Part shown: one piece after another, positions 5,181-62,000 of the stretch
How the letters are laid out: each line of letters starts with the position of its first letter
Position numbering within the stretch: position 1 is the stretch's first letter
NCBI GenBank assembly: GCA_947172415.1
Contig: OX359190.1
Span: forward strand, 2,356,001-2,420,000
Direction of reading: 5' to 3'
DNA from: Chondrosia reniformis
Lineage: Eukaryota > Porifera > Demospongiae > Chondrillida > Chondrillidae
Length of the DNA stretch: 64,000 nucleotides
Translations under genes and position numbers: made by a program
Notes under the pieces: model-generated
Seen by the model: the letters and a program-made list of their open reading frames with translations, nothing else
The model's database searches: none
Told to the model about the DNA's origin: nothing

Positions 5181-5189
5181 ACCTTTTAT

Positions 5190-5545: not shown

Positions 5546-5563
5546 ATTTATATTCCTGGACAG

Positions 5564-19815: not shown

Positions 19816-19832
19816 ATATAATACACTTAATA

Positions 19833-19838
19833 TTTATT
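19833..19838 (-). promoter_or_regulatory. AATAAA poly(A) signal for NFU1
   Basis: AATAAA on the minus strand, 41 bases past the NFU1 stop codon at 19879. Confidence 0.6.
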
Positions 19839-19878
19839 ACAAGTTTAATAGTATAGCTACTGATATAAGGTCATGAAA

Positions 19879-22800: not shown

Positions 22801-25800
22801 ACTAGGCAACAAACAAAATGGAGAGATTGTAAGTGGATACTTTCTGAGACAAGAAATATCTTAACTATAACATCTTAATCATGGTTGAATGGATACACAA
22901 ATTATTAACCACATACATAAGAGGAGGAAGAGTACGCAGGCATAAAAAGGCATTAATTCATATTCAATTTGCAATGAGTCATTTTATTAATTTGAAAATG
23001 AAAAAATGCTAAATTTGCAATATTTTAATATATGGCACAAAATTATAAATAGTTACATCTCTATACAAGGTAGGCACGCCATAACTACGTACGTTCAATG
23101 TAGATTTTGTAATTACGTAGTTAATAATACACATTGGCTTTGATACAACAAATGTTTATATGTTTCAAGATATTTACTTAATTTTTATGCATAGTTAAAC
23201 AAATTGCTTTAAGAAACTGATTTAGATCTTAAATCTACTACGTACGTAAGTAGTTGGCTTGTTGCTAGGTTACCTGTATCCGCTGACTGTTCAACACTCT
23301 CTTGCACAACTGGCAATCCACTGGCAAAGAAGTCCATAATTGTGGCATAAATATTTGGCTTCATAGTTGACCATTCGCCCTCTTCCTGCTGTAGAACGAA
23401 ATACAATAGAGTATAAAATATTGGTTAATAGAATAAGGATTTCTTCTAACTGTGTCGAACTTATCTTTGGAAAGGGTCATCTTTCGACTTTGGGAGCGTC
23501 TAGAGACGCAGTTTTTTTGGTTCTTCTTCAGTCACTGAAGAAGACCTCCAGGGTCGAAACATTTGGCAGAAAAAACAACCAAAAAAACTGAATTTCTAGA
23601 CGCTCCCAAAGTCGAAAGATGACCCTTTCCAAAGAAAAATATTGGTTCTTCACTACATACTGTATTTGTCCAAATAGAGGCCTTGGTTTGTTCCGGCCAT
23701 TTTGGCCCAACCTCCATTTGGAGAGCTGGTTTCTAAGGGACAAACTCAGCTTGTTTACAAGGCTCATACAAACAAATGACATCCATTGGAAAGGAAAAAT
23801 GGAATAAAAATTGTATCCTCATCCAAAGCTCTATAGGATTTGCCTAAGTTATATGAAATCTAGGAAAATAATGGTTTAAGTTACTCTATTCATATGCTTC
23901 CTTAGCTTCGTATGCATGGCAACCACATTTATAGGAAATTGGTAGCACAAATCATTCATGTCTTCACTTATGTTATTTGTACATATATAGACAGTCTACA
24001 ATGGTAGTATACAGTACTTCCTCGGTTATCCGAACACCTTGGCAAACCACTTCACTCAAGTCTGTTCAGAAAAGTGAATTAGTCCGGATAAGTGAAATAG
24101 CATTGCATAATACATGCCAAGGATTCACAGAAGATCAAGATAAAGAAAAAGACAAAGACTCCCAGGATCACTGATGAAGGGTGGAGTTCCCGGAAACGGC
24201 TGTCTGACCCAGTGGAGAAGAAGATGAAAGAAGGGAAAAAAAGGAAGAAAAGACTCCTGTATCTTCATACAAAGCTCTCTTCAGGTTTAGTTCCCCTATA
24301 GGCTCTTTTACAGAATAGGCATAGCATGTAGGAAAATGGTATCTTAGATTTTTCATGTACGTACACTTGTATATAGATACAAAATCTTCAGCTTCTGCAC
24401 AATGTTTAAAATGTTCCTCTTTTGCTTACTCGCTGGTTCGCTCATTTTCTGCTATTATAATCCCTACTTGTTCACACCAAACGAATACGAATTATGTACT
24501 GTATGACTCGCCTATAACAGTGACATCACAAAAAAAATGGTTGACTTTTCCCATCGCCGTTCGGACAATCGAGGAAGTACTGTATAGTCATAGGCGTCGG
24601 AGCTGGGGCGTCTGGGACGGTTTTGGCTGCCCCACTTTTGCTCCACTCCTCTTCTTTTTAACAAAAGCTTATAGCTTGTCAATGTGGCAAAGATATATAG
24701 CCAACAATAGTACAACTTATTGTTATCAATGCTAATAGTAAGGCCTCTCCACTTTGTAAGTGCTTCTGACGCCTATGATAGTACATGGTATAGTATATAG
24801 TTAGTCTAGGGTGGATGCTAGAAACACTCACTTTAGAAACGGTGATGTAATCTGTTCCAAAAAAGACACTTTTTACTCCGTCCAATCTAAAGATTTGCCT
24901 ACAGCATTGATAAAGTACAAGATGTTGTAGACCCGGTGATAATCAAACCACAAGTGTCTTAAAGAGCAGAATGATGTTTGCAATCATGAGGTTTTAACTA
25001 AACTAATAAAACCTGAAGTGGGTCCAACGACAATGGACTGACCGTGCAAGTGGTGACACGACAGCTGCTGAGTGATTCGGAAAGTCCATGGTTCCTCTTT
25101 CCAAAACAGGCACTCCAGGAATAAACTTGAGGCTGTTGGGATTTGGTGTGGTTTGTGTTTGAATGAACATTGTGCGTGCTAGGCATAGGAGAAAAGGGTG
25201 CATACAGAAGCATCGAAGAAAAGGGGTACTAACGTCTTAGACTAGAAACATTCTTGTTAAAACTGTTCATATACGTATTTTACATACGTCTAAACTACAA
25301 CATATTATAAAACATACAAAAGTGTATCTTATAGTATATATACGTACAGGGTTTGCTTTAGGAAATATTAACAAGAGGGTGGGGCAAATACAGTATACAC
25401 AAAGATAAAGATTCCCAGGGTTACTGATGAAGGGGAATTCCCAGAAACAGCTTTCTGGCCAAGTGGAGCAGAAGAAGAAAGAAAAGAAAAGACTCCGGGA
25501 CCTGTATCTTCATCCAAAACTCTCTCCAGGTTTAGTTCTCTATAGGCTTTAAGCATTACATGTAGGAAAATGGTGTATTAGATTTTTCACGTCTTTGAAA
25601 TTGGCCATATCTGATGTACAGTCTTGATGAGATCCACCAATCAACAAGTACAATTTACAAGTTTTGAATTTACAAATTTCAAAGTAGTACAGTTTTGAGG
25701 GAGTCCCTAGTTCAATGTTTGTTTGGTATTAAAATTGGCAGTTGGACTTTCTTCAAGGAGGAGGGGAGGGAGAGGGGGAGGGGAGGGGTACTTAATTTAA

Positions 25801-26329
25801 TTAGTACAATGCACTTCCAAAGCAATAGAAAAACACTTTAAATTCATTATTGCCAAGAGTTACTTCACATATATCTTAGCAAGCATAATGTATGAAAACA
25901 TATTATGTACATATTTAATTACGAAGTATAATGAAAAGAAAATATAACAATTTTCTACACAAATTAACACTCTATACTATATATATACATATATCCTTAC
26001 TTTGACATTTGTGTATTGAAGATGAATTATCATTTAAACGTAGTCTTCCTGGTAGGTATGTATTAGTCACAGGAGCACAAAGCGTGAATGAAGACCTTCC
26101 TCTTCGACAACTGGTCAATAACAAGATAGTTCACATGACTTAGAATGCGAATTATAAACGTCTTAGTTAATAAAGCGTAATTTATGCATGTACAGATATT
26201 ATACAGAGAAGATATATAGAGATCTTACTTATACATAACTGTCGGAATGGTAGTCACTGTTTTTATCTGAACTTTATTTGCTTCAAAGAAAAATAAGCCT
26301 AATCTCAAGCTCAGTCTACTGGCAGCCAT
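19879..26329 (-). CDS. NFU1: mitochondrial NFU1-like iron-sulfur cluster scaffold, complete, 8 exons
   Basis: Exons: 26329-26229, 25228-25043, 24898-24832, 23388-23274, 22772-22709, 22097-22022, 20427-20329, 19956-19879. All joins are GT-AG and phases agree, giving 786 nt or 261 aa (human about 254). Exon 1 ([19 protein letters not shown]) is basic, aromatic and acid-poor, like a mitochondrial presequence, with a good ATG context (AAAATGGC). Next come the Nfu N-domain ([55 protein letters not shown]), a linker ([20 protein letters not shown]) and the NifU C-domain ([47 protein letters not shown]). The cluster-binding CxxC is CTSC. NFU1 helps deliver 4Fe-4S clusters to lipoate synthase and complex II in mitochondria. 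Introns hold the repeats listed separately. Exon 1 is the least certain, but its phase-2 donor matches the TTAG|TACC acceptor. Confidence 0.94.
20085..20283. mobile_element. short TIR element in NFU1 last intron
   Basis: About 200 bp starting TTCAAGGTTTCATTCGGGGG and ending TTTCTGGATGAAACCCTGAT. The ends are imperfect inverted repeats of TCARGGTTTCATYC. The interior is unusually G/C-homopolymer-rich (CCCCCCTTGGATT twice). There is no coding capacity, so it is MITE-like. Confidence 0.65.
20518..20576. repeat. 22-bp arm hairpin
   Basis: GATATAACAGGATTTAAGAA-GC pairs with GC-TTCTTAAATTCTGTTATATC across a 14-base loop with one mismatch. It lies in an intron of NFU1 on the opposite strand to no known RNA. 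Confidence 0.7.
20765..20789 (+). other. hammerhead-like core CTGATGA-A-GACC/GGTC-GAAAC
   Basis: It reads CTGATGA, A, then GACC TATG GGTC, then GAAAC, in NFU1 intron 7. TTTCTC (20748-20753) and GAGAAA (20793-20798) could pair outside it. One extra A separates the core from stem II compared with the classical hammerhead. A diverged relative with a broken CTGANGA lies at 21844-21871 (AGATCCCTAGGTTCGAAACG). Confidence 0.4.
22197..22452. mobile_element. ~250-bp MITE with ACTGTAAATCCCTTATT ends, copy 1
   Basis: It starts CTCTAAATCCCTTTATTTAA and ends AATAATAAGGGATTTACAGT, flanked by TA on both sides. The interior carries repeated TTAGCGA/TCGCTAA words. An inverted copy lies at 60733-60986. Terminal inverted repeats and TA flanks fit a Tc1/mariner-type non-autonomous element. 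It inserted in an NFU1 intron. Confidence 0.85.
23465..23638. mobile_element. foldback element with hammerhead-like motif in its loop
   Basis: Arms of about 60 bp: CTTTGGAAAGGGTCATCTTT through CTAGA...AGTTTTTTTGGTT on the left, and its near-perfect reverse complement ending GATGACCCTTTCCAAAG on the right. The loop contains CTGAAGA-A-GACCTCCAGGGTC-GAAAC (23534-23560). Related pieces bearing CAGTTAGAAGAA ends occur near 54450-54570 and 63740-63960. It sits in NFU1 intron 3. Confidence 0.8.
24010..24100. mobile_element. pogo/Tigger-like terminal sequence
   Basis: CAGTACTTCCTCGGTTATCC followed by GAACACC and, about 50 bases later, TAGTCCGGATAAGTGAA. This resembles the ends of pogo/Tigger-type elements (CAGT...CTCGGTTATCCGAAC). 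It is only a short internally deleted piece. Confidence 0.5.
24121..24358 (+). repeat. HR repeat copy 1, complete, with hammerhead-like core
   Basis: Begins GGATTCACAGAAGATCAAGA and ends ATCTTAGATTTTTCATG. Hammerhead-like region 24161-24214: CTGATGA at 24171-24177, stem II GGG/CCC, GAAAC, then ACGGCTGTC with predicted cleavage after 24204. Its 11.1 base is G where other copies have A. It is followed by a purine-rich run and CTCTTCAGGTTTAGTTCCCC. Confidence 0.85.
25396..25592 (+). repeat. HR repeat copy 2, slightly diverged
   Basis: CTGATGA at 25424-25430 with stem II GGGG/CCCC and GAAACAGCTTTCTGG. Stem I GGGTTA/TGGCCA keeps several pairs. One stem III base is changed (T for G at 16.2), so activity is doubtful. 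It lies about 165 bases upstream of NFU1 exon 2 (acceptor at 25228). Confidence 0.8.
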
Positions 26330-29800: not shown

Positions 29801-31327
29801 AATTTTGTCTCTGCAGGACCCCATTTATAAGGTTGTAATTAGAGTGGTGACTTGATTGTTTAAAGGTATATAAAAGTAAAATATAGTGTGAAGTTTGGGA
29901 CGGGATTAATATGGCCACTTTAAGAAATTGACATTCCTAGAAAGGTTTCACCAGGTTGAATGTAGAGTAAATTTAACAGTACATTTGAGGTCAAGGACAT
30001 ATTTACACATATTTACACACCATTGAACCTATAAAACTAATGGATCTGACTATTGTCATTTTATATTACCATTACTATTACTAATTGACTGATGTCACTC
30101 TATTGTTATCACAGTACTGCTATGAAAATGAAGAAATAACCAAATTTTAGCCTTTTAATTGCAGGATACTATCAGCCTATTACCCGTATCTTGTAACCTA
30201 AACCATATTTAACCATACAGAGCAGACTAGCTCCATGTAGCCCTGAAATGGGTCTGAAAACTGAATAACCATAATGATTATGCTCGGTTATTCTGTCACA
30301 GTAGATATGTTAGGAAATCCTTTACCTTTATAAATTCTTAAAGATGTCGTCATACTGAGAATAGGAAATATGATGATATATGCAGGTCATAAATCTACTG
30401 ACACATAAGAAACACTATATATATAGATATAACTATAATATGTATGTCAGATGTATGTATATATACATAAATCAGACATATTTATTATAGATGTGGAGAA
30501 ACTATTACAACACTAAATATGTAATTACATCTAGCACTGCTAAGTATATGTGCATATATGTAGAGTATATTTCTTAATAGATTTGAGGTCAGGGAGGGAC
30601 ATGTTTATACATATTTATATACCATTGAACTTATAAAAATAGTTACATTAGTGAAGTCATGTGAAGTCGTGGGAAAGAAATAAAAGATCTAAACAGAAGT
30701 ACAAATCTCTCAGGTTTAGTTCTCTATAGGCCTTTACTATAAAGTAGAGCATGTATAGCATGTAAGAAAATTGGTGTATTAGATTATTCATGTTATAGCA
30801 ATGCCCTATTGTACTTCATCTTTTGATGTGTGTTGGTATTCAACCCTATCTTAGGAGGTTTTCAGGTACATACTTAATTGCTAAACCAGTATGACACTTA
30901 CAGTGCAATGATTATGCGCACTGTCAATGATGCAGAAAGGAATCTAAAAGTTAGAATCACATGGTACTGGTTCAACAGCTGGACTATGTGTATGTATGGA
31001 TATGTTAATCATCACAAGTTCCAATGAATTAGGAAATTAAGGGACTTCTGTACTGTACAAAGAGCATCTGTGATTACAAGTTAAATTAGTTCATCACAAC
31101 AAGGCCCACAAAAGAGAAACCTAGCATCACCGATGGAGACAAAAGTTAATTACACTGAAAGGATTCATTTTCTGGCCAAAACATGCTAGTATATAAATCA
31201 TATAAAGCCCACGCATATTAGACACACTGGATGGCAGATGTTCAATTAGTTCTAGTCTCACAGTTTAAGGATTGACTGATTTAACTCATATATATATATA
31301 TATAGAGGTTATAGTATATGTATGTAT

Positions 31328-31361
<34 letters not shown>

Positions 31362-34300
31362 AATTATTATATATACTATAAGCTCTATAGGATTGTCCTA
31401 AGTGTCATCAGTCTTATGGGTTGAAGTCTTTATAACACAATCTGGTATAAGCCCTTAAAATCTTACATAAAAGCTATTCAGATTTTCAGCTATTTCTTGT
31501 ACAAAGTGTACAAATTTGTACCCTTTCAATATAAAACTGTATACACTTGTACAAGAAACAGCTGCAAATTCTGAATAGCTGCTATTTAAGATTTTAAGGG
31601 TTTGTTGTTTTATATTTTCTTAGCCTCAAATGCTTGATGCTTGGTAGGAGAGTGGTAACTTAGATTAGAAGAGATTGGGCAAAATTGCCTGAACTAACCA
31701 CCTATTTTAACAATGGTAATATTAGGTTGCCTATGATTGACCTTTAAGTGATCTTCAGTTGACCTTTAGGTGACCTTTTCAATAGACTATTCCTCATCAT
31801 TCTATATTGTTTTCATTAAGACAATAAAGTATCACATTACCATTTAATGCATCCAAATTAGAATCTACAAATCAAATTTTATCCCATAATACTAATAATA
31901 TTATATTAGTGAGAGGGCCTATATATATAATAGAGAACCTGTCAGATATACTAGCAGAAGTGGTAATTACCTGGAGACATGCGTCTAACAATGTGATTAG
32001 TTCACAATCACTAGCATCAGATTGGAATGTGAGCAGTATGGAGGGGGCAGGACTGAATTAGTATGGTGACTATTCAATGCCTGATTGGTTTAGCTAAGCT
32101 TGAATAAACAGCATGGGAATTTTATATTTCCTTCCCATTTGGCACTGACAGCTGAACTAAGGACAGAAAGCATTCCCTATACATACAGGCTTCAAGTATA
32201 CTAGCAGTATACATACATATAGGATTCATCCGTAGACTGGAGTGTCTAGTGTAATGGACTCCAAAGCTTGCAGATAGAACTTGTTTATATGCTTCATAGT
32301 CAGTATACGTACGTATATAGCTCCAAAGCTCAGCTTTCAATGTACCAATGGACAGTGCATGATACTGTATAAAGTGAAGTAGTAGAGAGCATTTGTTGTA
32401 AACATTTTGTTAGTCATTGCTTTATTAATTGAACACCAACAATTAATTGTCTGAAGATTTCATTCCAGAGCTCTTCAGGTTAATAATACAAGCCAATCTA
32501 AATAGTGAAAGGGTGACGTACGCATGTAGATGATGTGTAATGTGTGCACTGTCTACTGAGTAATTCTCGTATGTGGAAACTGTTGTGGTTTTGACTATCT
32601 AGTTGCAGATATGTATATCTAGCACAGTATATAGCTCAATGACTGCCAGTGACTGACGTACATGTCTTTTGGGTAGCTTGCTCATTATAATAGGATACCG
32701 ACAGTTAGCAGGAAAACCATACCCTGCATGCTAACGTGGTCAGAAGCGCTATGCATGAAATACCTCTTTGCAGCAAGTCATTGCAGCTAGCCTAAAATTG
32801 TATTCATGTAATAATCAATTATTTTGACTATATAAAAATGATACATTAAGGATTCACAAAAGATTCAAGAAAAAGACAAAGATTCCCAGGGTCACTGATG
32901 AAGGGGTAAAATTCCCAGAAACAGCTGTCTGGCCCAGTGGAGCAAAAGAAGAAAGAGAAGACTCCTGTATCCTCATCCAAAGCTCTCACCAGGTTTAGTT
33001 CCCTATAGGCTTTTTAATTTATTACAAAGTAGGCATAGCATGGAATTTTTCGAATGATGAAGACATCAAAGCTTTAAGAGATCAGCTTCAGATCTCCTTA
33101 TTTTTCATGCCTATGTATGTACATATACGTACTAGCAACATTACAAAAGGTGCCCAAATATTGTAGTATGACCTGTTTCCCTCTTTCTTGTCACTTATTT
33201 ACAGATTATTAGGTAGCCTAATAACCATGAAGTGCCTATCTACTTTAGAAACTGATTACCACACAAATCTTAATTAAATTAGTACTATAGCCCTAGTTTA
33301 TATTAAAATCTATGGAAAGACTTTAGCATAAAAATTACTACATCTCAAGGCTTTCAATTTAATAAACCAAATGATGGGTGACCTGGGAGTATATTCAGGA
33401 TGTGGCTATATTCAATCTTAACTATGTTATATCATGTATACAATACCTATGTGAAAATATTTCTGGCCAAATTAGGTAAAACTTGTTTAATGCCGAGATA
33501 ATGGTTAAGTCTATAAATCTTAATTGATTATTGTGTACCTGAACTTGATGTTCCGGTAAACCTAGTCTGGAAGCAAGCTCCTGTTGACTGCCTAAGTCAA
33601 GAAAGTGACCGGAGGCAAAGCTTCTATCCAAGTCAATCATTTGAGCTTCTGTGAGAGTGTCCAGGATTGATTCACTACAAACTGAAGCTGAATCTAAAAA
33701 AATAACAGAACAGGTAAATATTCCATTATACCTAGTATGTTTACACATTGGATTATTATGGACTGAATAATGTACATCTAAAAGTAACTCGCTACTTCTA
33801 AAGCTCATCTTAAAAATGTCAAAAGTCAAATTCATGAACAGGCAAATGACAGGATTCACAGAAGATCATAATAAAGAAAAAGACAAAGACTCCCAGGATC
33901 ACTGATGAAGGGTGAAATTCCCAGAAACAGCTGTCTGACCCAGTGGAGAAGAAGATGAAAGAAAGGAAAAGAAGAAAGAAAAGACTTTTGTATCTTCATC
34001 CAAAGCTCTCTTCAGGTTTAGTTCCCCTATAGGCTTTTTTACAGAATAGGCATATCATGTAGGAAAATGTTATCGTAGATTTTTCATGTATGCATGTCAT
34101 TGATACATGGCTACATTTAAACAGCAAACCTACACAATGCAGAAAGCACACTCTAAATGGATTATGAGATTATACCTTCTGAGTTTTCTCAAGTGTAGTT
34201 TTGAGGGCTTCTGGTTTATTTATATGTATTATAGTAACCTTATAAACAACACAGTTGAAGCCTGTCTTAAATACTAGATTTGCAGCAAATCATATTAGAA

Positions 34301-37300
34301 AAACCTTAAAATCATATGTACAACCACACTGTGTACGCTAAGTTATACAATACTATCGGTTTCCTGCACACAGAAGTTTGTTAACAGAGAAATAGCTATA
34401 TAACTCAATAGCTACCTATGTTGAAAGCTTTAATTATGTAACACTTTGAGGTTGTAACTAATTTTGACTCTGAAAATTACCCTTCCACTATTAAGATGGA
34501 GAACAGTATGACAGAATTGTCTCACTAAATTAGGTCAATATCCTGATTGGGTTCGACCACAAATATGCAAATATCAACAAAGATATCCATATGTAGGAGC
34601 AGCAGGCTAAAGTCACACGGAAAAGGACCCATATTTCAACAAATAGGATTATAGAGCGAGGAATAGCTTTATAGACATCTGACTATATACATATAGGACA
34701 TATTATGATATGAGAAAAGTGAGACTACAGTTGATAAATTGATAAATATTGATTTTTAAGATTAGTAGCACCTTAGAAGCATTAGAATATATTTGTAAAT
34801 AATTTGTTAATTACATGATAATACGTATATTATATACAGTGCAAGTTACAATATATATATTACATACAGAAGGATTCACAGAAGATCAAGATAAAGAAAA
34901 AGACAAAGACTCCCAGGATCACTGATGAAGGGTGGAATTCCCAGAAACGGCTGTCTGACCCAGTGGAGAAGAAGATGAAAGAAGGGAAAAGAAGGAAGAG
35001 AAGACTACTGTATCTTCATCTAAAGCTCTTTTTAGGTTTAGTTCCCCTATAGGCTCTTTTTACAGAATAGGCATATAGCATGTAGGAAAATGGTATCTTA
35101 GATTTTTCATACGTACATGTACATGCAAGGTTAGTAGGTCGTTGTAGATACGAAAACTTAAAAATATAATATTAGTGGATTATTATTTTTACTTTAGCCA
35201 TGGATGTTCAGGTAAAGAGAATACCCAATAATTCAGCACAATTGTATAGACTGTATACTGAGTGTTAGTGACCTGTATATGTGGCACTTTCAGAAGCCAA
35301 GTAATGACATTATTTATAATAGTAGACCTTATGAATCCATAAGACATTACCCAGGGAGTAGTGTTTGTCTCACTTTATAGTACTCAGTGAAATGGACTGA
35401 CAAGATCTTAAACTATAAATAGAAATATATGATCCATGGAGCCACTGGCCAAATAACTGACCAATCACAGAGCCATGGAAATCAAATATCTTAATAACAA
35501 AACAAACATTTTCAATTCATAAGACATTCCTAACTTCTGCAATAACATTTACTTTCTTATTTTAGCTGTCAACTAATTTTGGGAGCCATTCCTGAAAGTG
35601 ATCATAGAAATAATAAACTAATTATGGTCAAACTGAATATCATGAGTCAGTTAAAGCAGGTATAAGTTAATATTCAGCTTTCACTCAGAGAAATTAGCTG
35701 TGGGTAATCAGGTCAAGATAGTTAATATTGAGTTTGTAATGTGCAAAATCAACCAACTGTACAGCCACGATGTTCTTTAAGGAAGTCAAGTGTTCCAAAT
35801 GGAAATAGTTTGCACTGTGGTAATGTTCTTATAATTGGACAGTTTGTGGTTAACTCAAATGCTCATACAGTACATACATATGCAAATACACATAACTTGA
35901 AATCTTTCAAATCAATAATTGATCAGTACCATTGAATTCAAAGACTCGTAAAATTGATAATTACTCATGCAATAGCATACATGGGTACAACAGAATTCTG
36001 TGACCATACAGTGCAGAAACAAGTATTGGACTAAAAAATATGTCATTCGGTACGTTTATATACATTGCCTAGTAATTAGATTAATAATTGTAAAGAGTAT
36101 TAAATGCATCTATAATGACACCAGATTTATCCAAAGCTGATACACATGAATGATAAAGAAAGATTGGCCTTGCGGCCCAAAGAACATGTGTAGCGAATAA
36201 TCATCTAAAGAAAGTGAATACAAATTGGCCTCACAAGAGATTAAGTTTCCACCAGTCCTAAATTAAACTTTGTTATGATTCAATCAAAATGAAAATCCAG
36301 TATTAATGGTTAAGCCTTGCTTTGGAAATTTAATATGAAAATGCTATTAAAAGGGTGCATTGGTAATTCTTAAGGTGTTAATTTGAATTATACTCTACCA
36401 CAGGAACTTGAGATCAAGAGTTCTATCCCACGCAAAACTTTAATTCAGTATGATAATTGCATAATCCTAAACTGATTAGAAAACCCTATTGACCTTCAAC
36501 TAATCAATAATGTAAAATGCAGAAGAAATCATAACATTCTGTGTGGTATATAAATAGTCACATTCAGCACTGGTAAGCTATTTACATATTAGAACACTGA
36601 ACTAATTATAACCTACACAAACGTATGAGGTAGAATACCTAAACAGTATATAATACACAGGGGTAGACCCTCTAATCCAAAACGGTGGATCTCATAGCCA
36701 ACCAGAAGAATTGGTGTGTTTCCTAGGCAACCATAGAGAGATGGGATTAAAAAGCTACAAAATGTAATTCTAAAGAATTCAAGTGATATTAACTCTACTG
36801 CAGTATCATCATCTTCCTTTACTGGTATAGCTATGAATATAGTTACTATATCTCAGAAGAATTTCAATAAATTAAGAAGCAATTCCTTGCATACATAACA
36901 TTAACTGAAGAATGCAAGCATAAAAACAGTCAAAAATAAAATGTTTCAAATGCTACTTCTATTATCCTATAAAGAGGAGCATTCTAAAACTCATTAGTGC
37001 GCATCCAATATTGTTAACAAGGTGGTTTCCTAAATTCTTGAATGTAAACGTAACTATGATACTTCTACAATAATATGGACCAAATTTTGTGTTGCCAGAT
37101 GCTGATGGACAACACCATAAGTATAAACATAATGGTGAGGTTTAGCTGAGAAGAAGTACATAATGCACAAGCCATATATATCTGGCTTCTGTTGCCATAG
37201 TAATGTGTGAATCTGCATAGTCTTTATTCAAGTCTTTAGACAGCAAATCAAATCTTTACAAAAATTCAATTAAGTAAACAAAAATTGATAGTATATAGAA

Positions 37301-40300
37301 GAGGATTACATGATGCATTTTGAAATGTACCTAGAAACATGGAGATAACCAGCTGTTGTACAGTGGCTTCAGTGTCATCCAACAAGGTTTTGCTCCATAA
37401 AGATTACCTTGTTAAATTCCAATCATTCAGAGACTTACAGAACATAGGATAATTGTTGTGGTTTGCTTATCACTTCTAAGTACAGCACATGTCATGTTGT
37501 CTGCTATCATGAAGATGTCAGACAGGTCGGTATATTTAATTCATAAATTAAACAAAACCAAAATGATTAAATTATTGAACTATGCAAACACTACGTATAT
37601 ACTTTTAATATTATGTTAATACAAAACCAATTTAGAGCAGTTGCATTTAATATACACCAGGACATCCTGCTAATAGTCAATGTTTCTTTAAGATGAAAAT
37701 AAGTTCATCACAAAGAAAGAGCAAATATTTGTCAAAAGGAATTACATTATCTCAACCAAGCACAAATGGGATAATTGTGGGCCAATTACCACATTAACTC
37801 TATGTAAGCTAACAGACCAATGGAAGTGTAGATAGTAATCTGTAGTGGCTTAGTGGTTCAAAAGGAATCTATCCACCTAATATCTTGCACTCCCCACATC
37901 CTTCATTGGTCCTTATTGTTGCACAATTCCTTCTAGCACATGACTCCACCCCATAGGGGTGAAACTGTAATCATGAGGTTCTGGTGATGCATTCTAGCTA
38001 TCAGTATGTTCAAATTATAGTTAAGCATGTAAGTCTAGTCTCTCGGTTTGTGAATGCCTTTGAACAATGGTTAGTTAGGATTGCTTTCCAATCTCAAAAC
38101 CAGTACTCCTCTAAAACAATGAATTTAGGTACACAACAGTATAGAGGTTTTAGAGGTGAATTCATTATCTTCATATTTCCATACTAATAAACATATTAAT
38201 CTTTCCAATGAATCATAACCTTAGATTATTAGCCATTAAAAGTAAGTTGTTTGTTAATATTAAATGGTTTCAGCCCCTCACCAGCCATTTGCTATATCAC
38301 CTGGTGTAAAGGCCACAATCTGGTCAATGAATATCATTAATCAGATCATGAATACCATTTAGCATTACCCACTAATATTCTGGGAGTTATGTACAGTACA
38401 TACTAGTCAAATGCTGATACTTAGTATTGTTATTATTACGACACCCCTGTGCACCTGCCATGCACTCTCAACATGACTAAAAGGATTACATAAAGTGGTA
38501 CACTCTTGAAGGAGTCTTTGTCCGAGGACTCACAAAAGACCAAAAAAGACAAAGATTCCCAGGGTCACTGATGTAGGGTGGAATTCCTAGAAACAGCTAT
38601 CTGGTCCAGTGGAGAAGAAGAAGAAGGAGAAGACGTATCTTCATACAAGGCTCTTACGAGGTTTAGTTCCTATGGACTATAGATAGACATTCTATTCTAG
38701 AATACCTACAAGATGCAGAAAATGGCATTTTTGATTATTCATGTACATGTTTGCAAGGGTTGCAAATGCCTTCTATGGGATGGATAATTACATCAAGCTT
38801 AAGGCATATTAAACTAGGAAACAGATCAGATAATTTCAAACGAAGTACTTTAAACTCAACATGTAATACAAACCAAAATATAAATAATGAAATACATTAT
38901 AACTGACGCAGCAGCAATACATACATAATAATGCTGATATATCCAATTAAACAGCAATTTTAATGATCAAATAAAACTTTTTAAAGGAAATAATATTGAT
39001 GTCACATGGCAAGGGTTCCAAAGAAATACAGAAAGCATTCCAGAAATACCAAGCAGTTTAACAATAATAAGCATATTAAGCAACCATTATTGTGTGGTCA
39101 GAGTACAGGTTGATTAGTAAACTGTCATACCATTTTATCTGCATCAGGAGCAGGAAGATCATATCTCAAAAATACTTGACATTAGGAAAATTTCTCAATC
39201 AAGCTAAATCAAGAGCATTAATGGTGCTTCTATAGAAAACTCAAGGCTGTTAATGAGGTATTGACACATGTATTTGCACTTCCATGGTTTCATGATATAG
39301 AAGTGACCTGGAATCTACTTTATGGGATAGATTACATAAATATTGACAGTTTCTGGACCAATCTTGGCGAGAAAGTGCAACTGAAAGTGTATTATATTGA
39401 CAATGCATTCATTTTAATGTCTCAAGAATTAAAACAACTGTAATGTAAATCCATTTGGCATTAGCACTTTGGCCTCAGCAGTAACATTGAGTAAGAAAGT
39501 AAGTCTTGTGTTAGAATAATTGAACTTCTAGTAACATAAATATTATAATTATAGTGTCAGTACATCGCAAGGATTCATAGGAATTACTACTAGCCACATA
39601 TGGCTCTTCCTACTTCCTGAATGATGTCACCTTTCATGTCAGTTACTAAAAGGTACAACTCTTGCAACATCTTCATAGAATTTAATTTCCTTTTATAGGC
39701 ACTAAAAGTAAGCATTTTGGAAAACCAAACTCACAATTATGTTACTCATGCTAACACATGTATATGGGAGACAAGGTTACATTACATGACAATGATAATA
39801 GAATATAGGCTTCATCCAACTGCATGGTCAACCTTTGATTGGGATGGTACAGCTAATATGTGTAAGAAACTACTTAATCTAAAAAACAAAACATACATAC
39901 ATCAAATTAGGGAGAGTTATGGAATTCGGTCAAACTACAAAAAAGATTTCAGTTAATCCTTTTGGACCACAAATTAGTGATATCTCACAATTTAAGACAA
40001 AGAATCAAAAACTAAGGTTGCTGTAGTGGTTAACATTAGAAAGACGATGCATTGCTATGTCACGGTATAGTGCTTGTTAGTATTACATAATTAGGTGTAA
40101 CATTGCACTGTGACAGCTGTAGTTGTTGTACTACATGTCAATATATACCAATATTTCTCTAAGCAACACTCACCTTCATACTCTGAATTATCAGCCACCG
40201 AGTCGGCCTTTTGGATATTTTCACTTCCCGAGTTAGACAACCCACCGCAGGGACTTTGACTGCAAGACCTTCCCTCTGATACCTCGTAGGATTTAATTTG

Positions 40301-47000: not shown

Positions 47001-50000
47001 TAAATAAATGGATTACTATGATATAGTGTAATTTGCACTGTACGTACGTATATCCAATCTGTCAATAAATAAAAGTGTAAACAATGCATTATCAGTATTA
47101 CTAATTTTATCAGTGTCATGTACCAACTGCATCTCTAGATGCTCAAAATATCAGAAGATGAGCTGTCTAGGAGGTCAGTTACATATGCAGGCGTAGCTTG
47201 AGGAAATTCATAATCTATTCATAATCTATCTAAGGGTGGAATTTCCGGAAACAGCTGCCTGGCCCAGTGGAAAAGAAGAGAAGGAGGAGAAAACTCTTGT
47301 ATCCTCTTCCAAAGCTCTCACTAGGTTTAGTTCCCCATAGGCCTTTACTCTAAAGTGGATGTACATAGTATGTAAGAGAAATGACATATTGCATACAGGC
47401 AGTTAATAGTAGTCCCAAAAGGCCTGGATATCAATCAGAAGGGAATGACACACCTGCGGCTTCTTAAAGCATGATATCTATGACTACATCACCGAGTAAC
47501 ACCACTCTTTAAAGTCCCAAGATACAGTGTAGCATGAAATGGTAAGTAACACTAGTGTGATCATTATGAAAACGAGCAATTGAACCTGGCAACACTAAAT
47601 ATGACATCATCATCAACACAATCCTTAGCGGTGGAGTGTCACGTACAGGCCACTGAGATGGAACTTTAGAGAGTGGATCAGTTGAGAAAGTCAAGGAAAT
47701 TAGAACCAACAGAAGCTGGGCATAAATTAAGAGAACATTTAATTGCTCACTGATCCAAGACTATCTACTATATCTAACAAATAATACGTTCTCTGCCATC
47801 ATTAGTGGACTCTGGTTTGATTTCAGCTTAAAATCAGTTTTAATTCCATAATACCTCTTAAACAAACTTGAGTTCAAATAACAATAAAACAAAAATTAAT
47901 AGTATACAATAAAACCAGACAATTGGAGGTCTATAATGGTCAGGGGCAGTTTTGATCTTAAAGTTCTCTATTTTTTCCAATAAGTTAATTATTAAGAAAA
48001 CACGGTGTAAGTTCAAGAGATGCTGAAATTCATTTACTCCATTTGATATCAGCTGCTATGTTCTAAACATGTGTTTGTATACAAGAGTAGAATAAACTAT
48101 TGGCAGCTCCACTCTAAATCAAACAATTATAAACCTTCTTGGTATGACAAAGTTGGATGAAACAGTTGTGGTTTGATTATCTATTAGACTATCAGTACAT
48201 AACTGTCAGATTGTTTCCTAGGAGGATGGCTTAATAGATGCTATTCAGATTCCCCACTTTGAATGTGCACAGTGAATTGAATTTTTTTTTAAACGACATT
48301 CAGCCAACCCACTAACAGAATGACACATATCAAATTATGAGAGGGCGGGGTTTACTTTTATTGAGAGGATATGTCACCATGAACATTTTCAAATGAAAAA
48401 TATCCTAATGTAACGCTGGCTGGATATTATGGAAAAGATGTGTTTACGGAATTAAACATTCACTGGTCCATGTCCTGTGTAGGAAAGACGGTTCTTCGGA
48501 TGAAAAGATGAGGCAACCACACTGATCCAACCAAGGTTTTCTGGGTTTCCTTATAAGGCTGTGACTTAATTTATCAATTAAACAATTAAAAACATCACCC
48601 ATTAACACACCAATACATTTTACATTAACTCCACTAATTGCTTTAAGGCTTTCAAACTGCAAATGTTGCCAAAAGAAATATTAAAGAGGAAAGCATTTGC
48701 CACATTCATTAATGAAGACCTATAATGAACTATTACTATATAAAATGTACAGTTTTTAATCTCCATGGCAAAATTTGAATCTGGGCAACTAGTGTTTGTA
48801 CTGTGAAAGGTTTGATAAATATTCAGGTACACTCCCTGAGCAAATATTACTAGATAAATGACCAGTTTTTAATCTCCATGGCAAAATTTGAATCTGGGCA
48901 ACTAGTGTTTGTACTGTGAAAGGTTTGATAAATATTCAGGTACACTTGCTGAGCAAACATTACTAGATTAATGAAGGCCCTATTCCACAGAAATGCCATA
49001 CTGAGAACAGTTGATTTAAACCAGACAACCTCAAATATCTAAACAGATTAGGAATGCAATTGTTACTTAAGATACATCTGCATATTAATTGAATGTTGAA
49101 AAATTTGATTGGAAATTTCCTGTGTAGAGACTATATCAGTCTCCACACAAGAAATTTCCAATCAAATAAATACAATGATTACCACATTTACATAGTAACT
49201 ATTATACAAATAATATGGTATTGCATGTGTTTTCTCAAGAACTACTCAACAAATTTAACAATTAGACCAAAGTTAATAATACAGGAGTCTTTAGTATCAC
49301 ATTAATTAGTATAGGATGTATATAATGGATACATTACTATATACAGCACACTGATTAAATGAAATATGGAAATTAGACAGAGTGGAGAAGAAGAAGAGAA
49401 GAATGAGAAGACACTTGTATCCAAAGCTCTCACTAGGTTTAGTTCCCTATAGGGTTTTACTCTTAAGTAGATGTAGCATATAAGAAAAATGGTGTGTTAG
49501 ATTATTATTCATGATCACAGTCTTAAAGTCTATGGGCAGAAAAAAAAGGAAGAAAAATACACTTTGATTTAACCAAAGATACCCAGGGAAACCAGAAGGA
49601 ATGATGAATCCTTCTTAATGTCAGCATTACCCAATCAATGGTAACAGTCAGGTACAATCCTGAGCCACGGAAAGGAAGTTTAGTCATTGACTGACTCAAT
49701 GATGGTACTGCAAGCTACTGAAACCACTTTAGCTTAACTACTTAATATGTGCATGAATGTCTAGAACTGCACTCTATAAAGATATAGTGACATCCTGATG
49801 TTATAAAACAAGGGGGCTTCAAGTATTGTTAAAGCAGGAATGTACTAACTAGAACATAAATGACAAGAAGACCAGGAATGTGTAAAAACTCTAAATTGAT
49901 TAATCAACTGTTGACAGGTTAATAAACAAACTAATAACCTTTACATAGACTGTTATTTACGTACGTACGTATATGGGTATAATATATACATACATGGTTA

Positions 50001-53000
50001 TAATTCATTCAAATAACATTTCCCATATTATAGTTATAGTCACAATACAAGAAGACATGAAACGGCTGTCTGACCCAGTGGAGAAGAAGATGAAAGAAGG
50101 GAAAAGAAGGAAAAAAAGATTCCTGTATCTTCATCCAAAGCTCTCTTCAGGTTTAGTTCCCATATAGGCCCTTTTACAGAATAGGCATAGCATGTAGGAA
50201 AATGGTATCTTAGATTTTTCATGTAATGTACACTGAGTATACAAGAACAGAAAGCAGTATCCCTAACCTTGTAAATAAACACAAATATGGAACAAAACTG
50301 TCACAATTTCCTTCCTAAAGTATCAAATAGGCCTTTCATTGTATATTGCTATTAAGACATGCGCTGCTTACATTAGTAGTAGCTTGGCAGTGAAGCAACT
50401 AGCAGAAGAAGCTATGTTACTATATACCAAAATAATGATTTCATCATAAAAAGCTTACGTACAAGTACAGTAGGTAAATGGGAATTTTACTTCTCTTAAC
50501 AATATACTGCCTGTTCCAAAGGTTACACTTTGGTTCTAAGGGTGTAATCATTTCTAAAATTAATTCTCATAACTGAGCTTTTGAATTAGAAATGTATCTA
50601 TAAGCCAAACAATGCATTGTGCAAATCACATGGGAGATTTACTTCAATCAATTCTTACATTCATATCATCTTTCTGAGAACTTTTATCATGAAATAACAT
50701 TAGACCAATCAGATGATAGAAATCAGTAAGAATCAGAAAATCCATTATTAAGATTGTAACTCCAAATAAAATTTCAAATTCCTCACATTAATATACAGCA
50801 GATAATCAAATCAAATAAGAGATAGCGTGGTACTAAAAGATTTCTCCATGCAAACAAGTAATGGAACAATATAGTATAGACAAAGAAGAAATATTCATGT
50901 AAAAAGATTTTTTAAAATTTTCAATAAAGACTATTTAATCGACAAATTAATAGTATCACACAAGCAATGAGTAATAAAGTATTTCATAATAGAAACCATA
51001 TCTATGCCACTTGATTTATATAAATAATCTAGATAGACGTATCTAAAATTCTACAAACAATAAGACCCAACCAGATCCAACAACACGTTTGCCTGAACAT
51101 GTATCAGATATAAGTAAATATTGACATTTGTTTATAAATAAACAAAAACAATACAACTTCAGAGTCAAAAAGATAGGCAAATGCAGCAGTTGTAAGGACT
51201 TTAGTGTCCTGTCATAGGAAGTGTTACTGTGTGGTACGGTAGGATCAGATACAGAGTAGCCTCACTTTAAATAGGGTCAGATCCTACAATATTGAAGTTG
51301 ACAAAAATTTGATTGGCAAAGACAGACATTAATTTGACCAGGAGACAGACATTTGATTGACCAGGAGACAGACATTTGATTGGCCAGGAGACAGACATTT
51401 GATTGGCCAGGAAATAGACATTTGATTGGCTAGGAGACAGACATTTGATTGGCCAGGAGATAGACATTTGATTGGCCAGGAGATAGACATTTGATTGGCT
51501 AGGAGACAGACATTTGATTGGCCAGGAGATAGACATTTGATTGGCTAGGAGATAGACATTTGATTGGCTAGGAGATAGACATTTGATTGGCTAGGAGATT
51601 GACATTTTATTGGCCAGGAGATAGACATTTGATTGGCTGGGAGATAGACATTTTATTGGCATTATTAGACAACTGGAAGAAACATGTGAAATTGAGATCA
51701 GAAAGACACATCCAGTTGAGGGAAAGTTAGGTTGATTCCTGGATATACCATGAAAACACCCAAGAGAGGAGCCACTGCTTATTCAGAAGACAACCTTCCT
51801 CAGGAATGTCAATAAATAGGATACAACTAGTGTACTAGGATGAAGCCCTTTCAATTCTTAGAAACATCAAAGGTTTCAATTGGCCTGATATGCATCGTTT
51901 GCCATATCTGCTTTTGTTTTTAACATTCAGCTTCCTAAACACAGAGTGACCTTACTGTATAAGACAATCGGAATTATATACCATTCTATAACCGTCAAAT
52001 GAAGTAATATATCCCTCGGCCTGTTATTTACATACTTTCTTGGCTGCAAACCTTTTCAGGGCTAATGGAGGTAGAATGACCATAATAATGGGCTGACCTT
52101 GAGGAAATTGGCTAATTCTAAAGCTGGTTGTTGAAAGGGGAAATATTTATGGATAAAACCATAAATTATCAAAAACATTTTTCCTACGTCATGACTTTTA
52201 TAGATATGCCATTTATATATAGAGATTGTGAGATGGTATTGGTATACAGTGAACAAATATACTATTAATATTCTTAAAGTTATTATTATAACAACTACTA
52301 GCATTACTACTAATACTAATAATTGGTAGCTATGTTACAAGTTTATGGACAATACCAGTTGAACAGGATTATAGATCAGATTAACACTAATCATACCATT
52401 CAATTAAATCACCATCTGTGTATACCTGTAATACGATACAATTTGATAAATACTCGAGTAATCAGGTTATTGGTATAAACGTCACCAGGACCAATTAACG
52501 TATAATTGTGTGGGCGTAGGATAAACACAGTAATAGAATGTCTTAACATTTGAAACCAGCTTACTGGCTACATTCGTAGGATGTACAGCGTCTTCCACAT
52601 TACCAACTAGAATTTAATTAGTATTGGATAGATGGTTGCCATGGTGACATTACCTGCTACAATCACTACAACATTTTTAGTCTATTGTCTCAGTATGTTG
52701 TCACTAATGAGTGATAAAGACTTTAGAGATTACCACTTGTACTTAGTACGTATATACATACATACATACATACACATACTCTTTTATGGAGCTATACACA
52801 GTATATTTAGCAACTAGGCTACAAGTCTAGTTGCTAAATTTATACTGTGGAGGTCCTGTGGACTTAGAGGTCCTTGTTTAAGAGTACCTATTGATGAAGA
52901 AGATCTACAAATTGATACATTTGATTACTTTATTGCTAGGTCAATTAGAAGATTTAGTCAAATCCATGAATGCATATAGCAGAAGCATACCTTACCAAGT

Positions 53001-56000: not shown

Positions 56001-59000
56001 ACGTATATATATACATATAATAACCACATACACACACATACGTAGGTTCACTAAGGTCAGGTGTTCAGTGATGTATTATATAGTAGATTAAAAAGGTAGA
56101 TGGGTTGCGCATACTGTATGTACATCCATGGACAAAAATGGCCGACAAGTGAGGTTGAATTGAATTTCATATTAGCTTGGGGGGGGGGGGCTATTAAGAT
56201 ATATAATCATTAATTGGAATACATTCTGATATCTCCTAGATGAGGAGATGTTAAAAAAGTAAATTAGATTTTTCATGTATTATTTCAAAAGGTCTCTTGC
56301 AATAGCAGTGTCTTTTCCATAACTATTATTATTATTCATTGCCACTTTGTCTATATTATTTGTCCTGTATTACTTGGATGCTTTAGTAGCTTAGATGGAT
56401 TGTTTCAGAATAGAGTTAGCTAAACTGTCTCCTTCTTCGTACCATAACTAAGACATATCTTAACAAACTGTAAAATGCAAATATTATCCCAATTTTCATT
56501 TTTGAAATCATTGTATGTATGTTTTATTAATAAGATAATCGGTTTTGCGATATTAAAAGTGTTAAAATAATTGAAACTACTAGCACTACAATATTAGTAA
56601 ATTTCTATTGTATATCTCACTGCAGTTTTTATTATTAAAAACAAGATACTGCAGTTCCAATTTACACAAAATGGCTTCCTTCACTCAACAGGAAGTAAAA
56701 ATCCGTAACATACCTCGTTTGTCATCGTGTAGTGCTGAAACTCTGGTCTGTATCCATTGACAATATTCGACATCTCGTCAATGGATGGATGAGAACTGAC
56801 CATCCCTTCATAAGGTTGCATATACTGTGCTACGATAGTGCCTAAGGAAGAGAAAGTTAGAACCCTCAAAAAATGAAGTTAGAAGTAGTGCCTACAACAG
56901 TAGTTAGCACATCTGGAAAAAGATATCAAAACAAGAAAGTGGCATACTGAAACTTAACTATGCACATCACTTCTATGTTTGGGCGCATCATACAAAGTAA
57001 GGATAATGCACCCAAACAGATAATCACACCACTGTTGATTCATTAGGTGTTAATTGATAATACATTAAATAGGGCGGCCATGTTTTTTTCTGGCATTCGC
57101 TACCTTACTCTCTCATAAACTGATTTGGAGGCAATCACTGGTTGCCATTTTAATAGAACTTTATCCGCTGGCTCAAATTAAACATAATTTAGTGTGAATG
57201 TTTCAACTTGAATGCAGTGGTAAATTTAAGCAAGTGAATGTCTTAGAGATGTAGTCGTATTACTTACACCTTGTTGAAGTAAATATACCTTGCACTGTGG
57301 TAGTTTTACCACATACATACATTTTCTTAAGCAATGATCTCAACTGGTACATTGTATTAAGGATTTTATTAGTTGACTTTTAATTGTATTTTTTGCTAAT
57401 TAGTGTTGCTGTATTAGCTATAAGAATGGACAAAGGTCCTTCCTCCCGGCATCCCATATTTGGAACAATAACCACTACATTCTCATATAACAATAACCAT
57501 AATATCCGCTCAAACAAATCGATGGTTTTTCTAAAAAATTATCACTTTGGTCAAAATTGTCATTCCTCTATGTATTTGTCACACCCCAACTAGTTACCAA
57601 TTTAATTCTAAATACGTAACTCTTTTCCTCTAACCTTTACTCAATAAAAATTACAACAATTACCTCACATCCCATCTTTAAGATGTTTAAATCTAAACTT
57701 TATTAGAAATGTAAATAGCACCAGTTCTGGAAAAGAATGAAAGAGAGACTCAGCTTGAGCTCATTTTCCAACTAGATTAGGTACCTCTAATACATCCTGT
57801 GTAACCATGACAACGGATGTACAGAAGCTAAACCAGCTTGAGCACTGGGGAAAATGTTTGGTCTGTTTCAATTTAAAATGGTTGAGAAACCTTCAACTTT
57901 CAAGTCTCATGTAGCACTCTGTATGTAAACATTATGCAATTATTTTATGAGAAATGTTTGACTTTTTGAAAGTGAATATCGGAAAATGTTGCACTAATCA
58001 GTAACAATTGCGTGTTCAAAATCCCAATTGTACTAACTAACAAACACTTAAGGACTAATAACAAACAGAACAGTCTCCTTATATACTTATGAAAAGGTAT
58101 ATATTTGAGCATCAGCAACATTTATTTTTGAAAAACAGAGATTTGAACGTTTTCAACCCGTAGGTCTTCTTCAGCAGTGAACGCAACAAATATCCCTTAT
58201 ATACTAATGTATATCATACAATTGGTGCGCGTACACACTTCATTTGGTGTGTGAATCTTATTGAGTTAGTTTTCCTTTGTACATTTCAAATTTAATGCTA
58301 CATTTGTCTAAAGTGTTAGAAAATGGCTTCCGAAATGATACAATTGGTATTTGCTTGGTAGAATTCTTCTTGCATTACTTCTTGTTGAGGATGTTTCACC
58401 AAAAATATTAGATGACAATGATAAACAGCTGAAAAGCTCTCACCATAGCTATTTACGTAGTTTAGTTTAGCTGTATAATTTTTAGCTCTTAAAAATTGAC
58501 ACGACTGGCAGGGAGTTTATTTTGATAATATTAGACAATGAGCAAAGCATAAATAAAATTAGCATAACAGTTGCAAAATATGATTTAGCTTAAAAAGACC
58601 AAACTTTCATTCTAGCACTATTTAGTGCTGATCACGTGACCTCCAGCCAATGGGATCCTTCAGAGAGGTCACATGACTAACATTATTTAAACCTGACACT
58701 AAATACCCAATGTATGGTATATTATCATAAATAACGATAGGGTCTTACTTGGGTTGTTGCCAGGGTTACATCGCACTGTCATCTCCCATAGGACCAAACC
58801 GAGTGCATAAGCATCAATACTCAGGAATGCTTCCTTCTTAAAGCTGATGGCTCCCTGCAATACTTCAGGACTCATGTACCTCACAGTACCGACCTATGTA
58901 CGAATTAGACATGTACGTATATATGAGCCAAGGATTCACAGAAGATCAAGATGAAGAAAAAGACAAAGACTCCCAGGATCACTGATGAATGGTGGAATTC

Positions 59001-62000
59001 CCAGAAACGGCTGTCTGACCCAGTGGAGAAGATGAAAGAATGAAAAAGAAGGAAGAAAAGACTCCTGTATCTTAATCCAAAGCTCTCTTCAGGTTTAGTT
59101 CCCCTATAGGCTCTTTTACAGAATAGGCATATAGCATGTAGGAAAATGGTATCTTAGATTTTTCACGTATATATGGACTGATGCCGTCAATTACAACAGT
59201 TGTGTTTGCTTTATCAGTTCTTTGGATTAGAAATAAGCCTTTGAAATTGATGTCAATAAAGGGCTATTCTACACAGATGTTGTCAGTAATACATATACAA
59301 ATGAATACAATTTACACACACATACATGATAGCAATTACTTAGTACCTAGTACTTAATAATTATGGAATATGTAGCAGTTCCTATTATGTATGCATGTAT
59401 ATAGACTAGTCTATGAGTTATTGTGTCACAAAGTATATTACCAGAGGCAATATACTGCAGGACAGTAAAATATTTGGACATAAAGAGATCAATGAGTTTT
59501 TGGGTCATTGTTCAGACCGGACGTTGCAATCGGTAATCAGTAAAAAGTTATTATCACTGCATGGTGACGTCATTCAAGTGGGAACGTTTGTTCAAATGGT
59601 AGTCGTGAGTGCTAACTGGTTACCGATTGCAATGTCTGGTCTGGACAACCAACCCATAAAGGAGAAGTTTGCCTACCTGCACATGGCAATCAGAAGGGTT
59701 TTCCCCTGACACTAGCTTGAGGGCCAACCCGAGATCGCTGATGCAACACTCCCCATCACTCTTCACCAGTACATTTCTACTTTTGAAGTCTCTGTGAGCA
59801 ATGGAGGGTTTTACAGTGCCATCCCTGCGTATTTCACAGTGGAGATGAGCCAACCCAGCAGCCATACTGACTGCCAGGTTCAAGAAGGACTGGAAATCCA
59901 GAATTTCCCTTTTAAGGTAGTCTTGAAGGTTGCCATAGTAATGGTATTCGGTAATCAGCCAGTATGTTTCATCAGGGTGCTTTTCATGAGCTATGTACTG
60001 CAATAGGTTGGGATGAACTATGTCATCTATTTTGTACATAGCAACCTCGTGCATCCAACTGGTGAGACCATCCTCGGGGAACACTTTAATAGCGACGTGT
60101 CTTCCTTCCCGCATGGCTTTCCACACTTTGGCAAACCTCCCCTGCCCTATTCTGTCCATCAGAATGCATTCGACGGACGTCTGGGACGTATCAATAATCT
60201 TGGTCAACTCTGCATCATTGTTTGCACCGTTACAGTTGACTTGATTAATCCTCACTCTCAATCTTAAAAGGTGGAAATACAAAATAAATATAACTACCAT
60301 ATATGGGGAATTGAATGCCTGTGCCTAAAATGTGAGATTGCACAATTTGCCTGTATGTGTAATCTTTTGACATGTATTGATATGTCACCTCAGTAATTGA
60401 CAGAGTAAAGGTTCGTTGCTACATTTGATATATGGTAGTTGAATATTAGTTGAGCGTTTTTACTGCAGCTGAGCGAACTTGAACAATTATTGGAACGTTT
60501 TAGTCCGTAGACCTTCCTCGGCCAATTATTAATAAGAATAACAGTTACACTTGAGAGACAGCACTTAAAAACACAAATCAGGTGGGGAATGATGTCATAT
60601 GATGTCATAAGGTGTAATACTGCTAAAAATAGTTACTGAATTATATTACAAATAAAGGGCTTCCACAGGTCACTTAGGATCAGGCTATCATCCTGATTGA
60701 CAGTTCTTTGAGAAAATCTCTGGATTTTTATTACTGTAAATCCCTTATTATTAGCGTGCTTTTAAATTTAGCTATATTAGCGATTTGACATTTACCGCTA
60801 AAATTAGAGTTTGCTAAATATAGTATTACTACTAAATAGAGTACTACTGTAATTATTTATTACTGTAATTAACTAACAAAACTTCTCTGCATTTTGTAAG
60901 TCGCTAATATTAAATTCCGCTATGTAGGGGTAAAATCCAATTTCACTAACTTTTGGTTCCACTTAAATAAAGGGATTTACAGTATATATTTGTATTATTC
61001 AACTGTCACCTCAGTAATTCCGTATATTAGTCTGTATCCCTTAAGTTTTATCCTTTAACCACATTATTTTATTTATAATTGTAATTTGGATAAATCGCCA
61101 TATATTACCAACACATTCAATTTCCGATAAACAATAGGAGTAATGTAATTAATAAAACTTGATTTGATACTACTGTATTTAAAGGATAAAACAGTGACTA
61201 CATATGTACGTATAAGCACACAAAACAACCGAGTAATTCGAGTGCAGAGAGCGGCAGCTTAAAGAGTTTCTTTAACTCAAATTACTTGTGTTCTGTTTGA
61301 GGGGCAGCAGTGACAAGAGTTTAGTCTACTTACTGCTTGGTCTGTTTTCTTGCATGATTTATGCAGATCACACTAAGAATGAGTGTAGCCACAAAACAGA
61401 TGATAATAACAATTGTTATTGCAATGAAAATATATCGTGAGTCTTCCTCAGCTGCTCCACTTGTAGCTAAAGAGGAAAAAAGAAAAAAGAATTGAATTAT
61501 GATGCAATCCAACCTTGTAGCTAAGAGAAAAAAAGAAAAAAGAAAAAAGAATTGAATTATGATGCAATCCAACCTGGTATATAACTTACAGAGAGGAATG
61601 GTAGCTGGAGGCTTTGGAGTGGAGCCATTATGTATTACATCATACCCATCCTCATTGCACAGGTTGCCCTGGCAACAACATCTATAAATTCCAATATCGG
61701 TAGGGTCGCTGAAGGTACAATTTGATGTGCGACAAGCATCAGTGATAGTTAACAGACAACCCCTGTTGGTAACCTCGATAGCTTCACTTCCAGATCTTCG
61801 TCTTACAGACTGAGCAGTGGAATAGCAAGCGTGGGAACTTTTGTGAGGGTCCAGTCCGTGTACCTGTATGGCGACGTGTTCGCTGCATACCACATGGCCA
61901 TTGACGCACACCCAATCATTGGTTTCCTTGTCAAAGCTGCAGTTGGTGTATTTGCACAAGAGATGTTCTGCAATAAGAGAAAATATATTAAAGACACTGT

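Follow-up and report, generated by a model that had tools for sequence, protein, structure and literature searches.

Leader repeats of a Naiad-like Penelope-like element in Chondrosia reniformis and copy starts at a predicted hammerhead cut

Introduction

A 64,000-nt stretch of the genome of the sponge Chondrosia reniformis (contig OX359190.1, positions 2,356,001 to 2,420,000 of the forward strand; hereafter the window) contains a dispersed repeat of ~240 nt in which a sequence resembling a hammerhead ribozyme is embedded. The locus raises the questions of what kind of element the repeat belongs to and whether the hammerhead-like motif cuts RNA. A first-pass annotation of the window, made from the sequence by a model, had viewed the repeat as a small non-autonomous element. 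Our analysis places it in the leader of a Penelope-like element (PLE) and reveals an excess of genomic copies that begin exactly at the base that follows the predicted cut. The account that we favor, and hold to be moderately probable as a whole, is that of a Naiad-like leader with a non-canonical hammerhead cut, at which the reverse transcriptase (RT) runs off its template at leader position q88.

The repeat as the leader of a Penelope-like element

Using as blastn query the reference copy of the leader (window 34869-35110, which defines the numbering q1-q242), 11 + strand copies were detected in the window, the same number as in the first-pass annotation, and the hammerhead-like core is kept in seven of them. 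The 117-Mb, 15-contig genome containing the window, to which all genome-wide counts refer, holds 1322 exact 29-nt cores and 2191 leader 3'-end words at ≤2 mismatches. In most of the sampled leader copies the shared 3' end falls at TTTTTCA or close to it, and many lack part of the 5' side, from which it follows that the + strand corresponds to the RNA. A start at (A)GCC|AAGG is found in many copies, and others extend upstream via TATATAAGG into coding sequence, promoter-side sequence being present upstream of the leader in 33 copies. Among the copies of a 3'-anchored sample from C1 (67 distinct copies out of 90 loci), 27 begin at the leader start, 10 extend into the element and the other 30 were classed as truncated at the 5' side.

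A full-length element, L129, is located in the same genome at C5:8044200-8048400 on the minus strand, and is composed, in order, of a TATATAAGG box, a leader, an unbroken 973-aa open reading frame (ORF) and a further leader spaced 3501 bp from the first. Another leader pair with identical spacing occurs on C1. The L129 ORF (P0001) has a GIY-YIG domain at residues 102-135 that scores 22.0 bits, just below the cut-off of 22.6. There was no Pfam match to RVT_1 in P0001 at E ≤ 1, and its RT was assigned by aligning it with 16 of the 67 homologues found. In this alignment the cysteines of a CxC motif between the endonuclease (EN) and the RT (C395 and C397) are invariant, and the invariant residues of the RT include G753, P755, M756, G757, P762, D799 and D800. 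All three homologues that were scanned with Pfam (P0003, P0005 and P0022) have GIY-YIG above the cut-off and N-terminal to RVT_1, the latter being above its cut-off only in P0005. The spaced leaders of L129, along with the terminal direct repeats of two relatives of the element (L150 and L151), point to an organization with pseudo-long terminal repeats (pseudo-LTRs) or tandem units.

A layout of GIY-YIG, CxC and RT with pseudo-LTRs is what we take to be the Naiad type of PLE. Judged by this domain layout, the ~240-nt repeat is the leader in the pseudo-LTR of a Naiad-like element. Since L129 holds both the leader and an RT ORF, the window copies are leaders of an element whose autonomous form lies elsewhere in the genome. 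The proposal of a small non-autonomous element has accordingly been replaced, and the statement that no RT is nearby holds for the window alone. A protein-coding role for the leader was rejected, as its 61-codon open frame does not start with ATG and is interrupted in the older copies. The relatives L150 (JAAETN010000659.1) and L151 (NYSS01000008.1) lie on contigs filed as bacterial metagenome-assembled genomes (Maribacter sp. and Planctomycetota, respectively), which are probably eukaryotic contamination of those records. No relatives in viral contigs were present among 14 pattern matches, and a PDB sequence search returned no matches.

Copies that start at the predicted cut

Should the RNA be cleaved at GUC|UGACCC (q87|q88), reverse transcription is expected to run off at q88, and copies starting there should be in excess. 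To count starts genome-wide, fully specified words of the TGACCC type were anchored at q109 on the 3' side, and their 5' end was stepped from q89 to q83. The counts for q89, 88, 87, 86, 85, 84 and 83 were 1313, 1297, 1204, 1192, 1160, 1147 and 1128, which corresponds to stepwise losses of 16, 93, 12, 32, 13 and 19 at q88, q87, q86, q85, q84 and q83, respectively. The loss at q87 is approximately three- to eightfold that of the other bases. Given that q87 is conserved at 0.98 in a set of 93 copies (described below), ~26 losses by substitution would be expected there. The second largest loss, 32 at q85, is at a base with a conservation of merely 0.90 in the same copies.

The places at which q87 is not C were then sorted by script, from a listing of 94 that was obtained with a slightly different word. 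These included the following: 19 with a changed or deleted C87 and the core upstream, 60 with unrelated flanks, and 15 with leader sequence joined at q88. The 60 unrelated flanks comprise 52 distinct ones, of which CAGGAAAAGCTGG and AATTCCCTGTCTG look leader-derived by eye. The 15 leader-joined places, such as L079, have ten junction positions, two of which (q89 and q90) may reflect small duplications; in the leader-joined copies the leader is joined exactly at q88 as if the RT had jumped from the end of a cut RNA to another leader RNA.

On C1 the q89-109 word occurs at 98 places, which reduce to 79 distinct copies once those with identical upstream stretches are merged; five of these start at q88, two at q84 and three at q46, and the rest are scattered. 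Those at q15, those at q30 and two of the q46 starts are preceded by leader sequence and resemble internal deletions. With anchors of the older type (TGGCCC) a q88 start was found in 2/14 copies. In a sample with readable subfamily, q88 starts were found in five of 26 copies of the middle type (CATCCAAA), and the leader-joined copy L079 was the one q88 candidate of the youngest type, which also had one C deletion.

Two other sources of the excess were tried and rejected. No splice AG was seen by eye at q88, nor a TATA box or YR (pyrimidine-purine) initiator step, and the lack of the latter two speaks against a second transcription start there. Microhomology between TG and the target was ruled out as the cause by a control at the nearby TG start, q84, where the loss was only 19.

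The hammerhead-like motif

The motif follows the type I hammerhead order, GGRUCA-CUGAUGA-A-GGG..CCC-A-GAAAC-RGCUG-U-C-UGRCCC, and the CUGANGA ... GAAA ... NUH core and the near-palindromic stem III noticed in the first-pass annotation were both borne out. The string CTGATGA..GAAAC occurs seven times in the window as against 0.31 expected from shuffling, six occurrences being in the repeat and one, at 20765, being unrelated to it. The latter core (20765-20789, + strand; CTGATGAAGACCTATGGGTCGAAAC) lacks, by eye, a short stem III and the NUH and is probably a chance occurrence or part of another element. A loose descriptor, which combined the core, a 3-bp stem II, a short stem III, NUH and ≥5/6 stem I pairs, matched four window copies. 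In 3.54 Gb of random sequence with the dinucleotide make-up of the window it had 22 matches, and one match when a G-C was required at 10.1-11.1.

Several lines of evidence nevertheless weigh against the motif being a hammerhead. Conservation and covariation were scored in 93 copies with distinct sequences, in which positions 10.1 and 11.1 are A in 0.99 and 0.97 of the copies, so that the standard closing pair of stem II is missing, as the first-pass annotation had cautioned. A closing mismatch at 10.1/11.1 is expected to weaken or abolish hammerhead activity. The arms of stem I had been described as varying together, a claim that the alignment contradicts: double-changed cells numbered 3/556 in stem I, 0/277 in stem II and 0/279 in stem III, with no sign of compensatory change, and one stem I pair is an A.C mismatch in 63/93 copies (the young type) and G-C in 24. 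The adjacent stem I pair is U.G in 27 copies and U-A, the young-type state, in 60. The bases of the catalytic core are conserved no better than their neighbors. A covariance-model search, which had been suggested as a check, likewise found no match to the Rfam hammerhead models at gathering score in the window, and none at E ≤ 10 in window positions 24000-39000 or in L129. No such core is present in the pseudo-LTRs of L150 and L151, neither of which has an Rfam match; three loose CTGANGA..GAAA matches in L150 lie outside its pseudo-LTRs.

Folding predictions were divided by subfamily. For the older type, the minimum free energy (MFE) structure of the monomer forms stems I and II, yet the CUG of the core pairs with CAG, and the MFE structure of the dimer is a double hammerhead. 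This is also the structure obtained when two copies of the 47-nt core of the window copy at 32848 are folded together. On the opposing side, the double hammerhead is the dimer MFE in only five of 35 distinct cores, the dimer energy of the B-type is not below that of shuffles (142/300 reach it), a longer stretch of a real copy, L137, gave no double hammerhead as a dimer, and no hammerhead fold is predicted for the young subfamily.

On the basis of the motif evidence taken alone, hammerhead status is doubtful, and we have not filed the motif as a hammerhead because it fails in the closing pair, the Rfam model and compensatory change. It is the genomic signature at the predicted cut that suggests the motif works like one.

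Proposed mechanism and competing explanations

We envisage the following series of events. Transcription by RNA polymerase II would start ~30 nt past the TATATAAGG box, and the RT, by analogy with the PLE of Anolis, would begin copying internally, at the U-rich leader end (q~242), and proceed towards the RNA 5' end, which would yield many leader-only insertions beginning at the transcript start. Such insertions would account for the SINE-like (short interspersed nuclear element-like) 240-nt repeats. In a minority of RNAs the motif, with its A.A at 10.1/11.1 and short near-palindromic stem III, may cut at GUC|UGACCC, probably as a dimer or with the help of protein. An RT running off the new 5' end would leave copies that start exactly at q88, and a hop of the RT to another leader RNA could produce the leader-joined copies. 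We lean, with some caution, towards the view that a degenerate hammerhead acts in cells inside a Naiad-type element and that the RT uses the cut RNA as template, leaving dozens of insertions that begin at the cut, together with some that record a jump of the RT onto a second leader.

The main rival to cleavage is a structural stall: the PLE leader is accepted, and the excess at q88 is attributed to the RT stalling or switching templates at an RNA structure. A candidate structure, e.g., an intermolecular stem III, lies immediately upstream of q87, and several further observations that count against cleavage sit comfortably with a stall. The young subfamily is a poor hammerhead. The base at q87 is lost in only 93 of the 1297 copies that bear the word, and, as the base-by-base profile covers q83-q89 and the TGACCC type only, a peak of comparable sharpness may occur at other leader positions. 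Truncations are also spread along the whole leader: among the 30 in the 3'-anchored C1 sample, just two are at q88, one of them leader-joined, and no other single position has more than two, but a diffuse cluster of eight falls within q157-164 (at least three of the 30, L030, L045 and L079, have leader sequence upstream). Three points led us to consider a stall unlikely all the same. Structural RT stalls usually smear across a few bases, whereas the excess here is limited to one base (93 versus 12 and 16 on either side); a stall should fall before, not after, the 3' strand of stem I is copied; and the excess coincides with a site predicted beforehand from the motif. Cleavage must also be set against findings on the Anolis element, for which hammerhead mutants were without effect on insertion and the cut site was not the end point of any read (PMC11167929).

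Less probable still, and in our view improbable, is that the likeness to a hammerhead is a coincidence and that the q88 starts derive from an RNase site or a truncated source lineage. The missing Rfam match, the lack of covariation and the non-canonical closing pair would all be accounted for in this way. Coincidence is difficult to reconcile with the rarity of the loose descriptor in random sequence and with the q88 starts of the older TGGCCC type, and the 52 distinct flanks speak against a single truncated source lineage. Lastly, an independent SINE or retrozyme is ruled out by the presence of the leader within the ORF-bearing L129, and a small non-autonomous retrozyme mobilized in trans, despite the many ~240-nt leader-only copies with a hammerhead-like core, is highly improbable for the same reason, for the promoter-side sequence upstream of 33 copies, and for the dispersal of the window copies, metazoan retrozymes being tandem (PMC7229834).

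If cleavage is the correct explanation, the genome preserves traces of the activity of a ribozyme motif that has no established role in such elements, and hammerheads would extend, despite the closing mismatch, to an element class that to our knowledge is reported to be without canonical ones. The start positions of genomic copies would then allow RNA cleavage to be read from old insertions. Counting copy starts requires a genome sequence only and could be used for other hammerhead-bearing elements.

Comparison with known elements

The PLEs with an N-terminal endonuclease, Naiad and Chlamys, are said to have been described by Craig et al. in 2021. The element resembles them in having GIY-YIG first, CxC, RT last and pseudo-LTRs, and the flanks of the copies are often TACATG/TATA-rich by eye. 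It differs in the hammerhead-like motif of its leader, Naiad-type elements being reportedly without canonical hammerhead motifs.

In canonical PLEs, minimal type I hammerheads were reportedly found by Cervera and de la Pena in 2014 and by Lunse et al. in 2017. They are known from the pseudo-LTRs, with a role given as unknown (PMC7761336). The features shared with our motif are the pseudo-LTR site, a weak or missing helix III and a proposed action as dimers (PMC7761336). The sponge element differs in its permuted domains and in the A.A at 10.1/11.1. The Poseidon element PAc of Anolis carolinensis is similar in its pLTR-ORF-pLTR structure, in an internal RT start that gives a fixed 'tail' end, and in a hammerhead that lies upstream of it (PMC11167929). 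The difference is that here copies begin at the predicted cut, ~155 nt before the copy 3' end. The hammerhead of the Anolis PLE cleaves only when protein is added (PMC11167929).

Metazoan non-LTR retrozymes are alike in size range, type I order and a dimer-prone stem III (PMC7229834). They are tandem repeats of ~150-450 bp with a hammerhead and no ORF (PMC7229834), whereas the copies here are dispersed and derived from an ORF-bearing element. In the axolotl motif HHR_Amex2 the base of helix II contains a U U mismatch (PMC7229834). Searches of the literature found nothing that joined Penelope-like, Naiad and hammerhead, and nothing by title on hammerhead ribozymes in Porifera or sponge animals among the matches listed, neither of which is proof of absence from print.

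Leader copies and other features of the window

The seven window copies with the core, all on the + strand, comprise the following: a near full-length copy at 24119..24356 (core 24165-24210, predicted cut 24204|24205), an older and diverged copy at 25401..25589 (core 25418-25461, cut 25455|25456), an older B-type copy at 32848..33042 (core 32889-32935, cut 32929|32930), copies at 33851..34087 (core 33896-33941, cut 33935|33936) and 34869..35110 (the reference; core 34916-34961, cut 34955|34956, i.e., q87|q88), an older copy with CTGATGT at 38543..38670 (core 38562-38607, cut 38601|38602) and a copy at 58930..59165 (core 58976-59021, cut 59015|59016). The last of these is flanked by an 11-nt direct repeat, ACGTATATATG. 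The other four + strand copies, each detected by blastn, were a 5'-truncated copy at 30712..30791 (leader 166-242) that begins 3' of the core, a fragment truncated into stem I/CTGATGA at 47232..47346, a fragment lying 3' of the core at 49388..49506 and a copy 5'-truncated inside the core, with a start near q76, at 50059..50222. No head-to-tail leader copies were found in the window, the nearest starts (49388 and 50059) being 671 bp apart and the others ~1 kb or more.

A second ribozyme candidate is present at 16710-16782 (+), where an HDV-like (hepatitis delta virus-like) self-cleaving ribozyme matches Rfam RF02682 (HDV-F-prausnitzii) at 47 bits versus a gathering score of 44; RF00094 also scores 29.4 bits, which is under its cut-off of 50. 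None of the six ORFs tested from 17450 to 20975 matched Pfam. A minisatellite-like array with a 19-bp period occupies 27650-28048. At 29092-29330 and 31462-31590 lie a long inverted repeat and a stretch with below-cut-off scores for several microRNA families on both strands, probably a palindrome resembling a miniature inverted-repeat transposable element. The host genes of the window, whose domains mark the genome as that of an animal, include B-box/filamin/NHL (TRIM-like) ORFs at 2006-9323 (-), a paired-box (Pax) domain at 40091-40957 (-) and a protein kinase domain at 59620-60300 (-).

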